Below, piece after piece: positions 35,751-48,125 of a stretch of 64,000 nt of DNA; within the stretch, counting starts at the first letter, position 1, and every line of letters begins with the position of its first letter. A program made the translations under genes and the position numbers. This DNA comes from Halogeometricum sp. S1BR25-6 (GTDB lineage Archaea; Halobacteriota; Halobacteria; Halobacteriales; Haloferacaceae): NCBI RefSeq assembly GCF_031624495.1, contig NZ_JAMQOP010000002.1, forward strand, positions 372,001 to 436,000, given 5' to 3'. The notes under the pieces are model-generated. The model was given only the letters and a program-made list of their open reading frames with translations. It ran no database searches and was not told the origin of the DNA.

Positions 35751-35772
35751 ACGGGTTCCTCCGGAACCCGTG
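35750..35772. repeat. perfect hairpin, 10-bp stem, loop TCC
   Basis: Stem CACGGGTTCC pairs with GGAACCCGTG across the three-base loop TCC. It begins on the last base of the copied tRNA-Pro segment. Confidence 0.8.
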
Positions 35773-35779
35773 AGCAAGG

Positions 35780-35796
35780 GAGACGCTCCGCGTCTC
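35780..35796. repeat. perfect hairpin, 7-bp stem, loop TCC
   Basis: Stem GAGACGC pairs with GCGTCTC across the loop TCC. It runs directly into the third tRNA-Pro tail copy at 35794-35808. Confidence 0.75.
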
Positions 35797-35895
35797 TCAG
35801 CGGTCCCACTCCACCTTTTTACTTCGTCGGGTTCGCTCTTTGAGCGAACCGCTCCTCGCAAAAAACTGTCTCGCTGAGCGGAGCGAAGCGAGGCT

Positions 35896-35918
35896 CGATG
35901 GGCGCGAAGCGCCCATCG
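35896..35918. repeat. perfect hairpin, 10-bp stem, loop GAA
   Basis: Stem CGATGGGCGC pairs with GCGCCCATCG across the three-base loop GAA. It lies 250 bases after tRNA-Pro in the same gene-free stretch. Confidence 0.8.
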
Positions 35919-44860: not shown

Positions 44861-45757
44861 ATGCTGGACGAGTTGCTGGGACGGGCCGAACTCAAGGCGC
44901 GCATCGAGGAGTTAGAGGAGGAGAATCGACACCTCGAACGCCGCGCCGAGGCCGAGGAGGAGCGCCGCTCCGAGGCGGCCAGCGAGCGTCAACGGGCCGA
45001 GGAGGAGGTCAACCGCCTCGAAGACCGGGTCACGGAGTTGGAGGACCGAGTCAGCAGACTCGGCGGCGACGAGGAGGCGGAACTCGATTTCCGCGGAACG
45101 GAGGACCTCCGCGGAGAGCGTCTGTCCGAGGTCCTCGCCCGTCTCGAATCCGTCGCCACCGGTCCCGAGGGAGCGTTCTCGGCCGTCGTCTCCGAGGACG
45201 TTCCTGACGAGGTGGAAGACGCGTTCGGCGAGCGGTCGGCGCTCATCCGCCGCGCCGGCCCGTGCGTCTGTCTCACCGACGACGCCGGCGTCGTCTCCGT
45301 CGCCCTCGACGCCCCGACGCCGCCCGACCCGTTCGCGGAGTGGAACGAGGCGTTCCGACTGGAGCGCTCGTGGTTCGTCCCGACCGAACCCGTCCGCGTC
45401 GCCCTCGTCCGCTCGGACCTGTTCGCCCTCGGCGTCTACGACGGCGACTCCCTGACGCTCGTCGACGAGGTGGAGTCCGACGTAATGAACGCCCACTCGA
45501 AGGGCGGGTTCTCGCAGGCGCGCTTCGAGCGACGGCGCGACGAGCAGGTGGACAACCACCTCGACAGGGCGACGGAGGCGCTGGCGGCGCACGAGAACGC
45601 CGCGGAGGGACTCGTCGTCCTCGGCGAGCGGACGGTTCTGGGCGACTTTCGAGCGACGGCCGACCGGGTGGCGACGGTGGACGCCTCGGGCGACCCCGAG
45701 GAGGCGCTTCGCGAGGCGGTCAGGGAGTTCTGGACGACGCGGCTGTACCGTCTTTGA
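44861..45757 (+). CDS. Vms1/Ankzf1-type release factor-like protein (VLRF1 domain)
   Basis: The 298-residue protein has an N-terminal coiled coil (about residues 8-70) and then an eRF1-like domain. Its catalytic-loop region reads SKGGFSQARFERRRDEQVDN near residue 210, with the Gln in a G-G-x-S-Q motif typical of Vms1-like release factors. Yeast Vms1 cleaves the CCA end of peptidyl-tRNA on stalled large subunits. This archaeal form lacks zinc-finger or ankyrin parts. It probably acts in ribosome rescue. The short context has DUF5802 upstream and a convergent membrane gene. The start at 44861 begins the coiled coil. Confidence 0.85.
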   Translation: MLDELLGRAELKARIEELEEENRHLERRAEAEEERRSEAASERQRAEEEVNRLEDRVTELEDRVSRLGGDEEAELDFRGTEDLRGERLSEVLARLESVATGPEGAFSAVVSEDVPDEVEDAFGERSALIRRAGPCVCLTDDAGVVSVALDAPTPPDPFAEWNEAFRLERSWFVPTEPVRVALVRSDLFALGVYDGDSLTLVDEVESDVMNAHSKGGFSQARFERRRDEQVDNHLDRATEALAAHENAAEGLVVLGERTVLGDFRATADRVATVDASGDPEEALREAVREFWTTRLYRL

Positions 45758-46295: not shown

Positions 46296-48125
46296 ATGAA
46301 TGCGGGTGGAGTCACCGGGTTCGGTCTCGCGGTCCTAGTCGGCGTCTCCCTCGGCGCCGGCATCAACTTCTGGATCGCGGCGGCCGCCGACCGCCGGAAC
46401 GAACCGGTCGCGCGCGTGTACCGGTGGCTGGCACTCGCGACGGCGATGCTCTGCGTCGCCTCGGTCGGGATGTACCTCGGACCGACCCCGACGACCGTCT
46501 TCGGGGCGTACGCGCTCTACAGCCTCTTCAACGTCTCCGGCGCCGCCCTGTTCGTGCTGTTCACGGTCGTGTACACCGGGAACCGCGACTGGCTGACTCG
46601 CCGCCGGGTCGCGCTTCTCGCGGTCGAACCCGCCGCGTACCTCCTGCTACTGGTCACGAACCCGCTCCACGGTCTGGTTCTGGTCGACGTCCACGTCGTC
46701 CCGTTTGAGGGGCTGGCCACGCTCCGCGCCCAGCCGACAGCTCTCACGGCGGTGCATATCCTGTACACGCTCGTACTGACTACGACCGGATACGCCCTGT
46801 TCGTCCGGTTCTACTTCCGGGCGCGGAACGTCTACCGCACGCAGACCGGCGTGATATTCCTCAGCAGCCTCCTCATCCCGACGGGGGCGTTCCTCTACGC
46901 GGGTGGGGTCACGCCGGTCGATCTGACCCCTTTCGCGCTCGTGGTCAACGGCGTTGTCGTCTGGGTCGCGCTGTTCCGGTACGACTTCCTCGACGTCACC
47001 CCGCTCGCCGCCGACCTCCTCATCGAGGAGATGGAGGATTCGGTCGTCGTGACGGGTCCGAACGGGAGGATTCTCGACGTCAACGGGGCGGCCGGGGGGC
47101 TTCTGGCCTCCGGGCGCGGGTCGGCGTCGAGCGAGAGCCCGGTCGGGCGGTCGCTGGCCGACGTCTCGCCGTCGCTGGTCGAGGCGGCGGACGGAGGCGA
47201 ACTCTTCGTCCGTTCGACGGGAGACGGCGCGCACGCGCGGATATTCGACCCGAGCGTGACGACGATTCGCGACCAGTTCGACATCGAGCGCGGAACGCTG
47301 CTGGTCCTGCGCGACGTCACCGAGCAGGTGCGCCGACGGGAGGAACTGGAGCGGCAAAACGAGCGTCTGGACGAGTTCGTGAGCGTGGTCAGCCACGACC
47401 TGCGCAACCCGCTCGCTATCGCGGAGGGGTACGTCGACTTGGCGCGCGGCGAACGTGACTCGGCCCACTTGGACCGAGCGGCCGACGCCGTCGAGCGGAT
47501 GAACGTGCTCGTCGAGGACCTCCTGACGCTCGCTCGCGACGGTCGGTCGGTGGACGAGGTCGAACGGGTGTCGCTCGCGTCGGTCGTCGACGAGGCGTGG
47601 CAGAACGTCGACGGGGACGCGACGCTCGTCAACGAGGCGGAGGGAACCGTCGAGGCGGACGCCCGGCGCCTCCAGCAGATGTTCGAGAACCTGTTTCGGA
47701 ACAGTGTGGAACACAGTTCCACGAGCAGTCGGGCGAAGCCCGACGACGCTGTCGAGCACGGCGCTCGACAGGCCTCCGGTCGCTCCGCTCCCGGAAACAG
47801 TGTGGAGCATGGCTCCGCGAGCAGTGAGACTACGTCTCGCGACGTCGGCGAACGCGCCGAACCGGGCGTGACGATTCGGGTCGGGTGCGAGGGCGATGGG
47901 TTCTTCGTGGAGGACGACGGCCCGGGAATTCCGGCGGCGGACCGCGACCGGGTCTTCGAACACGGTTACACCTCGTCGGCGTCGGGGACCGGGTTCGGAC
48001 TCGCGATAGTTCGAACTATCGCCGAGGCCCACGGGTGGTCCGTCCGTTCGGTCGAGGGCCGAGACGGCGGCGCGCGCTTCGAGTTTTCGGGTGTGACCCC
48101 GTTCCGACCCGTCGACGCTCGGTAG
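46296..48125 (+). CDS. sensor histidine kinase with 7TM N-terminus and PAS domain
   Basis: The 609-residue kinase has seven membrane helices in residues 1-230 of the histidine-kinase-N 7TM type. A PAS fold follows at about residues 240-355 (EEMEDSVVVTGPNGRILDVNG). A HisKA helix has phospho-acceptor His367 in VVSHDLRNPLAIAEGY. The HATPase domain has N-box QMFENLFRNSVEH, VEDDGPGIPAADRDRVF and GTGFGLAIVRTI. The N-box is followed by an unusual Ser/Glu/His-rich insertion (about residues 469-520) made of a repeated N-S-V-E-H unit. A CTTATC box is about 30 bases upstream of the ATG. No response regulator is adjacent. Confidence 0.92.
   Translation: MNAGGVTGFGLAVLVGVSLGAGINFWIAAAADRRNEPVARVYRWLALATAMLCVASVGMYLGPTPTTVFGAYALYSLFNVSGAALFVLFTVVYTGNRDWLTRRRVALLAVEPAAYLLLLVTNPLHGLVLVDVHVVPFEGLATLRAQPTALTAVHILYTLVLTTTGYALFVRFYFRARNVYRTQTGVIFLSSLLIPTGAFLYAGGVTPVDLTPFALVVNGVVVWVALFRYDFLDVTPLAADLLIEEMEDSVVVTGPNGRILDVNGAAGGLLASGRGSASSESPVGRSLADVSPSLVEAADGGELFVRSTGDGAHARIFDPSVTTIRDQFDIERGTLLVLRDVTEQVRRREELERQNERLDEFVSVVSHDLRNPLAIAEGYVDLARGERDSAHLDRAADAVERMNVLVEDLLTLARDGRSVDEVERVSLASVVDEAWQNVDGDATLVNEAEGTVEADARRLQQMFENLFRNSVEHSSTSSRAKPDDAVEHGARQASGRSAPGNSVEHGSASSETTSRDVGERAEPGVTIRVGCEGDGFFVEDDGPGIPAADRDRVFEHGYTSSASGTGFGLAIVRTIAEAHGWSVRSVEGRDGGARFEFSGVTPFRPVDAR
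47700..47825 (+). repeat. in-frame duplication with hairpins inside the kinase N-box
   Basis: The 30 bases at 47700-47729 recur with changes at 47796-47825, 96 bases (32 codons) later, both encoding an N-S-V-E-H-x-S-x-S-S unit. Between them lie three hairpins: GTCGGGC-GAA-GCCCGAC (47728-47744), CTGTCGAGC with GCTCGACAG (47749-47771), and an imperfect one with loop TCC (47776-47794). The reading frame is kept throughout. Confidence 0.8.

Follow-up and report, generated by a model that had tools for sequence, protein, structure and literature searches.

The window analysed here is a stretch of 64 kb from the genome of Halogeometricum sp. S1BR25-6, in which the initial annotation had taken the open reading frame at 46296-48125 for a 7TM histidine kinase. 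The Pfam profiles agree with this reading (HisKA_7TM; HisKA, 52 bits; HATPase_c, 64 bits), and the H, N, G1 and G2 boxes share one frame, as in a histidine kinase. Its N-box, which reads NLFRNSVEH...NSVEH, contains an insert of 141 nt, or 47 codons (47703-47843), that starts directly 3′ of the N-box's second Asn codon (AAC at 47700-47702). The features of the locus are the following.

44861..45757, forward strand: VLRF1/release-factor-like gene without a unit, the empty site for the homologues in genomes G037 and G011
46296..48125, forward strand: 7TM sensor histidine kinase gene, 609 aa (Pfam HisKA_7TM, weak PAS_4, HisKA, HATPase_c)
47688..47714, forward strand: N-box NLFRNSVEH, placed by alignment and by the AlphaFold2 helix of residues 117-135 (model of 47313-48122)
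47703..47747, forward strand: unit 1, 45 nt, AGT-hairpin 1-GAGCA-hairpin 2-GAC (SVEHSSTSSRAKPDD), delimited by the unit consensus
47706..47722, forward strand: unit 1 hairpin 1, GTGGAAC-ACA-GTTCCAC
47728..47744, forward strand: unit 1 hairpin 2, GTCGGGC-GAA-GCCCGAC, a GNA triloop with C-G closing
47748..47798, forward strand: unit 2, 51-nt variant (AVEHGARQASGRSAPGN) that starts with GCT and ends with AAC
47751..47769, forward strand: unit 2 hairpin 1, GTCGAGC-ACGGC-GCTCGAC
47775..47795, forward strand: unit 2 hairpin 2, TCCGG-TCGCTCCGCTC-CCGGA
47799..47843, forward strand: unit 3, 45 nt, AGT-hairpin 1-GAGCA-hairpin 2-GAC (SVEHGSASSETTSRD), stems slightly decayed
47802..47818, forward strand: unit 3 hairpin 1, GTGGAGC-ATG-GCTCCGC, one T.G pair
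47824..47840, forward strand: unit 3 hairpin 2, GTGAGAC-TAC-GTCTCGC, one T.G pair
47844..47858, forward strand: VGERA segment 3′ of the array, placed by alignment and inference

Three units, of 45, 51 and 45 nt, follow one another in tandem in this insert; each is formed by two small hairpins and a short spacer (GAGCA in both 45-nt units) and is bounded by Asp or Asn codons (RAC ... GAC). The boundary of the repeat block falls at the Asn codon itself (AAC^AGT...GAC), and the block therefore starts within the N-box rather than 3′ of it, the final N-box codons AGT GTG GAA CAC coming from unit 1. An in-frame repeat insertion at the N-box had been proposed from the letters alone, and it is real and lies exactly there: NSVEH occurs twice, 32 codons apart (starts at 47700 and 47796), 25 bases of the 30-base duplication are identical, and the reading frame and the other kinase motifs are retained. 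That description, however, saw only units 1 and 3 and missed the middle copy (DAVEH, 47745-47759), carried by the 51-nt unit. Hairpins are indeed present between the repeats, but each unit is itself a pair of hairpins. The 30-nt repeat was not returned by a repeat search at default settings. The VGERA segment that follows the array is probably, judging from the alignment, a decayed remnant of the original (A)VEH of this kinase, whose divergence would have been free once unit 1 had supplied SVEH.

When folded as single-stranded DNA, the insert was matched by none of 200 shuffled sequences (z = -3.9); folded as RNA, it gave z = -3.25. A perfect double hairpin (7-bp stem, 3-nt loop, 5 nt, and again 7-bp stem and 3-nt loop) occurs once in the window, at 47706, and in none of 40 codon-shuffled windows. 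Only this perfect version discriminates, the mismatch-tolerant scan being uninformative with approximately 65 matches per strand in a codon-shuffled window. A cluster of strong hairpins with an AGCA-type spacer (e.g., TCACGGGTTCCTCCGGAACCCGTGAGCAAGGGAGACGCTCCGCGTCTC) was also observed at 35752-35900 of the window and is possibly another palindromic repeat class. A search of four congeneric genomes retrieved no close orthologue of the kinase at E<=1e-60, suggesting that this gene is probably a lineage-specific gain; two of these four genomes retain its VLRF1-like neighbour.

The region 47313-48122 was modelled with AlphaFold2 from 32 sequences of the fetched loci, and Foldseek matched the modelled fold to ZraS, CpxA and HK853. 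In this model, the N-box helix spans residues 117-135, the insert is coil with pLDDT of approximately 45-56, and the next strand starts at residue 186. The insert thus exits the domain after the N-box helix and before this strand, away from the ATP lid; a location in the lid, as first suggested, was rejected on both the alignment and the model. Similarly, the idea that either NSVEH copy could be used is not supported, as only the first directly continues the NLFRN helix, whose completing SVEH is supplied by the first unit, and the later copies fall in low-confidence coil. In the predicted kinase structure, the insert is a disordered loop, which would be flexible and tolerated.

Units in other kinases and in unrelated genes

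Full units occupy the same position of the N-box in four other kinases of this genome (L008, L018, L019 and L028), the 51-nt unit 2 being common to the first three at approximately 90% DNA identity, and three further kinases (L004, L005 and L021) carry none. Using a DNA pattern for VEH[GS]STS in which the synonymous positions were left free, matches were found in 65 of the 148 genomes of the family and in 184 of the 391 genomes of the class, distributed over 52 of 86 genera, against 2 matches of the reversed control. Approximately 200 fetched loci are kinase N-boxes, belonging to two H-box classes and bearing 1 to 5 tandem copies. A longer pattern searched against 84,980 species genomes retrieved 85 stretches, all haloarchaeal by their titles (one being only “uncultured archaeon A07HN63”). 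No match was obtained in IMG/VR or in phages, and viral carriage of the units was rejected for this reason. The number of units varies from 0 to 4 or more between kinases, so that the variable length proposed initially is supported and a fixed insert, conserved in all orthologues, is not what is found. In contrast, the idea that the tail of the N-box had recently been duplicated within its own gene was rejected, since the same units are present in other kinases of the genome, throughout the class and in unrelated genes.

The frame of the repeat is not always that of the kinase. In L118 and L123, the unit DNA is read partly in another frame: from 687 and 759 (minus strand), respectively, the 48-nt repeat runs in a different frame over several units (VGACSDEPSLADAREDA), after which the kinase frame resumes. 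In another kinase, L332, a small indel in the first unit around 688 (minus strand; GGCTCGAGACGAGCC) produces an apparent frame break between the N-box and the array, this gene being apparently a pseudogene or a sequencing error.

The pattern of the hairpin-2 core alone was found in 136 of 391 genomes and 45 genera, with no match of the control. Thirty of these loci are divided in approximate thirds between kinase N-boxes, other protein genes and positions outside conserved ORFs, the latter mostly in terminal palindromes adjoining TnpB-like ORFs (TnpB was recognised by eye). At L457, the segment 1338-1511, beside a unit in the end of a TnpB element, matches Rfam sot0042 (TnpB-overlapping RNA) with 69 bits, below the gathering score, and this unit may lie inside the TnpB guide RNA scaffold. 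In a Halocatena plasmid (L425, around 1501-1600), a unit is followed by more hairpins (ACCGAGC-GAA-GCTCGGT, CCAGAAGCC...GGCTTCTGG), which suggests other related hairpin families outside genes.

The genes other than kinases that contain units, usually in frame, include those for MenD, a TrxB-like reductase, ValRS, LeuRS, PolX, PheA, Usp, Cgi121, CbiE and a VLRF1-like protein. Two sister species have exactly 45 extra nt in MenD, absent from ten other MenD genes, and two species (G037 and G011) have 48 extra nt in the VLRF1-like gene, absent from a congener and from the neighbour gene in the window. The TrxB-like reductase site (...GAG GAC^GGC...) holds exactly 45 nt in three species and none in others, and the G315 genome encodes this reductase in both forms, one filled and one empty. 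At TnpB ends, the site CCTCCGCGCCGTRAAC^GGCGCGG is likewise both filled and empty within the same genomes. In-frame units restricted to a single species were found in Usp, prephenate dehydratase, the LeuRS editing domain, Cgi121 and an alpha/beta hydrolase; PolX has one in two species, and a class I tRNA synthetase (ValRS by eye) has two. Plasmid genes are also concerned, namely those for CbiE, an MBL hydrolase (two units), a CNNM-type protein and the end of an ArsR regulator. A Halomicrobium mukohataei MBL-fold hydrolase (L424) shows two separate 48-nt-type units, at 1501-1552 and approximately 100 nt downstream. The units are shown to be present in several kinds of genomic site and to be structure-conserved (see below), and the gene insertions correspond to the empty homologue plus exactly one unit.

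Within one genome, units from different genes differ by 0.176, compared with 0.247 when genome labels are permuted (minimum 0.221) and with approximately 0.165 for tandem copies. This same-genome likeness was not seen in the 48 nt upstream of the N-box (0.318 vs 0.329 permuted). The units of one genome are therefore homogenised between different genes.

Base pairing in the units

The commonest unit has 45 nt and lies 3′ of a RAC trinucleotide, with the consensus 5′-AGN-[hairpin 1: 7 bp, 3-nt loop]-RRGCA-[hairpin 2: 7 bp, GNA-rich loop]-GAC-3′; the 48- and 51-nt forms have a larger hairpin-2 loop. The left flank is nearly always RAC and the right end GAC, and the hairpins, with stems of 7-8 bp and 3-nt loops, have their centres 22-23 nt apart. 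Units of the 48-nt class show covariation of stem positions 24-27/38-41 and conservation of the 10-nt loop, TCGCANRCTC. Of the insert DNA, 31.8% lies in perfect 7-bp stems, compared with 2.6-3.8% after synonymous recoding and 1.4% of the upstream kinase DNA. The pairing extends to synonymous positions: the third bases of Val and Ser (V3-S3) are paired in 86% of cases vs 42% in shuffled sequences, with all four types (GC, CG, AT and TA) represented, and those of Glu and Gly (Glu3-Gly3) in 85% vs 48%. At control VEHG sites, which lack the repeat, pairing was not significant (51% vs 40% expected, inside the shuffle range).

Pairing is also strong where it changes the protein. Among 114 distinct 45-nt units, the pair 28-34 of hairpin 2, in which both members are first codon bases, is Watson-Crick in 93% vs 33% expected, the resulting residues being Thr..Ser (40), Pro..Ala (26) and Ala..Pro (18). 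Likewise, the Ser codon AGT accompanies Asp and AGC accompanies Gly. In an unbiased set of 128 listed hairpin-2 cores, the free pair obeys Watson-Crick pairing in 95% vs 35% expected, and 40 of these listed cores have T as the N of the GNA loop and would thereby put a TAG stop codon into the frame of a kinase. The amino acids of the insert thus look to be dictated largely by the DNA hairpins and not by the protein. The Thr..Ser, Pro..Ala and Ala..Pro covariation, which stems from DNA base pairing, would mislead structure prediction based on coevolution.

These data bear on the idea of a Ser/Glu/His-rich flexible linker acting at the protein level, sized by selection to tune kinase output. The in-frame retention of the insert, its place beside the ATP-binding helix and its variable length would all suit a linker; nevertheless, we consider it very improbable, as synonymous positions covary, the hairpins are lost on synonymous recoding, amino-acid pairs track base pairing, the DNA repeat runs on in a different frame in L118 and L123, and the unit also turns up in unrelated enzymes and, close to TnpB, outside genes.

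The level at which pairing is constrained can be approached from its exceptions. The 70 mismatched stem cells comprise 49 A.C and 21 G.U, and these mismatches are strand-symmetric. G-U is not preferred over A-C, and the constraint therefore appears to be exerted on DNA; it looks, from these sequence comparisons, as if it acts at the DNA rather than the RNA level. Hairpins acting in the mRNA, in translation pausing, stability or processing, would be in agreement with the strong RNA fold of the insert and with the compensatory pairs. Such a role is nonetheless highly unlikely in our view, given the lack of G-U preference, on which mRNA structure was rejected as the conserved feature, together with the stable copies outside genes and the fixed RAC...GAC boundary, unexpected for an RNA regulator.

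Origin of the units and comparison with known elements

Very probably, the three tandem units of the insert are copies of a mobile palindromic element that is transposase-free and specific to haloarchaea. The element could land 3′ of GAC or AAC as a hairpin-bearing single strand or via a hairpin-templated replication switch, and further units of an array would pile up by recombination. Since GAC and AAC codons are abundant and in frame in the acidic haloarchaeal proteins, and since the lengths are 45, 48 or 51 nt, the copies would share one reading frame. The Asn codon of the N-box, where (A/S)VEH comes next, would be a hot spot because hairpin-1 arms of the VEH type restore the N-box tail.

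The insertion sites do not all look alike. Direct repeats of 7-14 nt flank the unit at the MenD, VLRF1-like, CbiE, Usp and CNNM sites, with 12-14 nt of homology at the VLRF1-like and CbiE sites, and at some insertions they resemble the element's own end; homology-mediated transfer instead of true transposition is therefore possible at those sites. At the canonical sites (TnpB ends, TrxB-like and hydrolase), nothing beyond AC/GAC is duplicated. An origin without any mobility, by local slippage and fold-back template switching (quasi-palindrome correction) followed by passage between paralogues through homologous recombination or gene conversion, would explain the tandem arrays, the homology at the VLRF1-like and CbiE sites, the strand-symmetric mismatches and the fact that the native VEH codons of the N-box are the left arm of hairpin 1. 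We hold it to be rather unlikely, however, because exact single-unit insertions occur in MenD, the TrxB-like reductase and TnpB ends, where the empty sites lack the hairpin-1 arm, and because the GNA loop, RRGCA spacer and end triplets are conserved at unrelated sites. The same three empty sites, without a left arm, led us to drop the idea that the right arm of hairpin 1 is copied from each target. Nevertheless, recombination and fold-back template switching probably have a part, and may have a large one, in the growth of the arrays and in keeping the two arms of each stem complementary.

The mobile element itself could be a derivative of the IS200/IS605 type (PATE), moved as single-stranded DNA by TnpA. 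In the 45-nt unit, 3 nt separate the hairpins from either end, and insertion 3′ of RAC with hairpins near both ends recalls single-strand transposition. The fixed 5′ flank triplet, the canonical sites without clear target duplication and the copies within TnpB-element ends point in the same direction. In contrast, the Y1 (IS200-type) transposase (PF01797) showed no association with the element, being present in 15 of 20 element-rich and 15 of 20 element-free genomes, so that co-occurrence does not point to IS200 TnpA as the mobiliser, and two near-complete, element-bearing genomes (G013 and G319) are without it; the enzyme may, however, have been lost or be a different one. This derivation is doubtful, if conceivable.

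More broadly, our judgement is evenly balanced on whether a previously undescribed 45-nt transposase-free family pervades Halobacteria, moving and being kept as single-stranded DNA hairpins and inserting 3′ of Asp or Asn codons, so that it would nearly always be tolerated in frame. The protein sequences of sensor kinases and core enzymes would have base pairing imposed on them, in the form of amino-acid changes that are coupled, and a haloarchaeal enzyme would have to recognise the element. Coding palindromic elements have been puzzling since the work on Rickettsia, regarding their mobiliser, their frame retention and the level of selection (DNA, RNA or protein). The hundreds of copies, the filled and empty homologous sites, the fixed boundary and the genetically tractable host class make these questions testable. 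For annotation, many haloarchaeal kinases, tRNA synthetases and metabolic enzymes would have to be considered as containing mobile-element peptides.

The Rickettsia palindromic elements (RPE) and Wolbachia palindromic elements are non-autonomous palindromes that lie within conserved protein genes without shifting the frame, and are found extragenically as well (review PMC2229807). The haloarchaeal unit is similarly palindromic DNA in frame in conserved genes with empty homologues (MenD, TrxB-like and VLRF1-like). Unlike RPE, which have 105-146 bp, one long stem-loop and terminal inverted repeats, it has 45, 48 or 51 nt and two short hairpins, forms tandem arrays, has a hot spot at the kinase N-box and is limited to Halobacteria. 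Protein-coding palindromic repeats reported in Methanocaldococcus jannaschii, known here from their citation in PMC2996958 alone, are likewise archaeal and in frame. The haloarchaeal unit shares with PARCEL the tandem palindromic coding repeats and the punctate distribution; however, PARCEL are imperfect palindromes of 75 nt encoding 25-residue amphipathic membrane or surface domains, whereas the units are short near-perfect hairpins in cytosolic enzymes and encode hydrophilic repeats of 15, 16 or 17 residues.

Within haloarchaea, the available part of PMC3119063 describes two kinds of Haloquadratum elements. The palindrome-associated transposable elements (PATEs) share their palindromes with IS605-type transposons, have a core-deleted form of 52 bp and make no target duplication. 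Like them, the unit lacks terminal inverted repeats, has palindromes near both ends and is too short for a transposase, and it agrees with most features of a PATE as given there, the likeness drawn here being one of architecture. It is, however, shorter, and the same part of that paper describes no in-frame coding insertion for PATEs. The small mobile repeats SMR-A, as presented there, have approximately 110 bp, prominent terminal inverted repeats, no target duplication and a mobiliser that is not known. The unit is also transposase-free and found within near-terminal palindromes of IS605/PATE elements (the filled and empty TnpB-end site above), but has 45-51 nt and ends that are not inverted repeats. 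In the open-access literature, to which the search was confined, no description of this double-hairpin element was found. By analogy, the unit would work like an RPE and resembles PATE and SMR-A elements, while being distinct from RPE and SMR-A in size and architecture.
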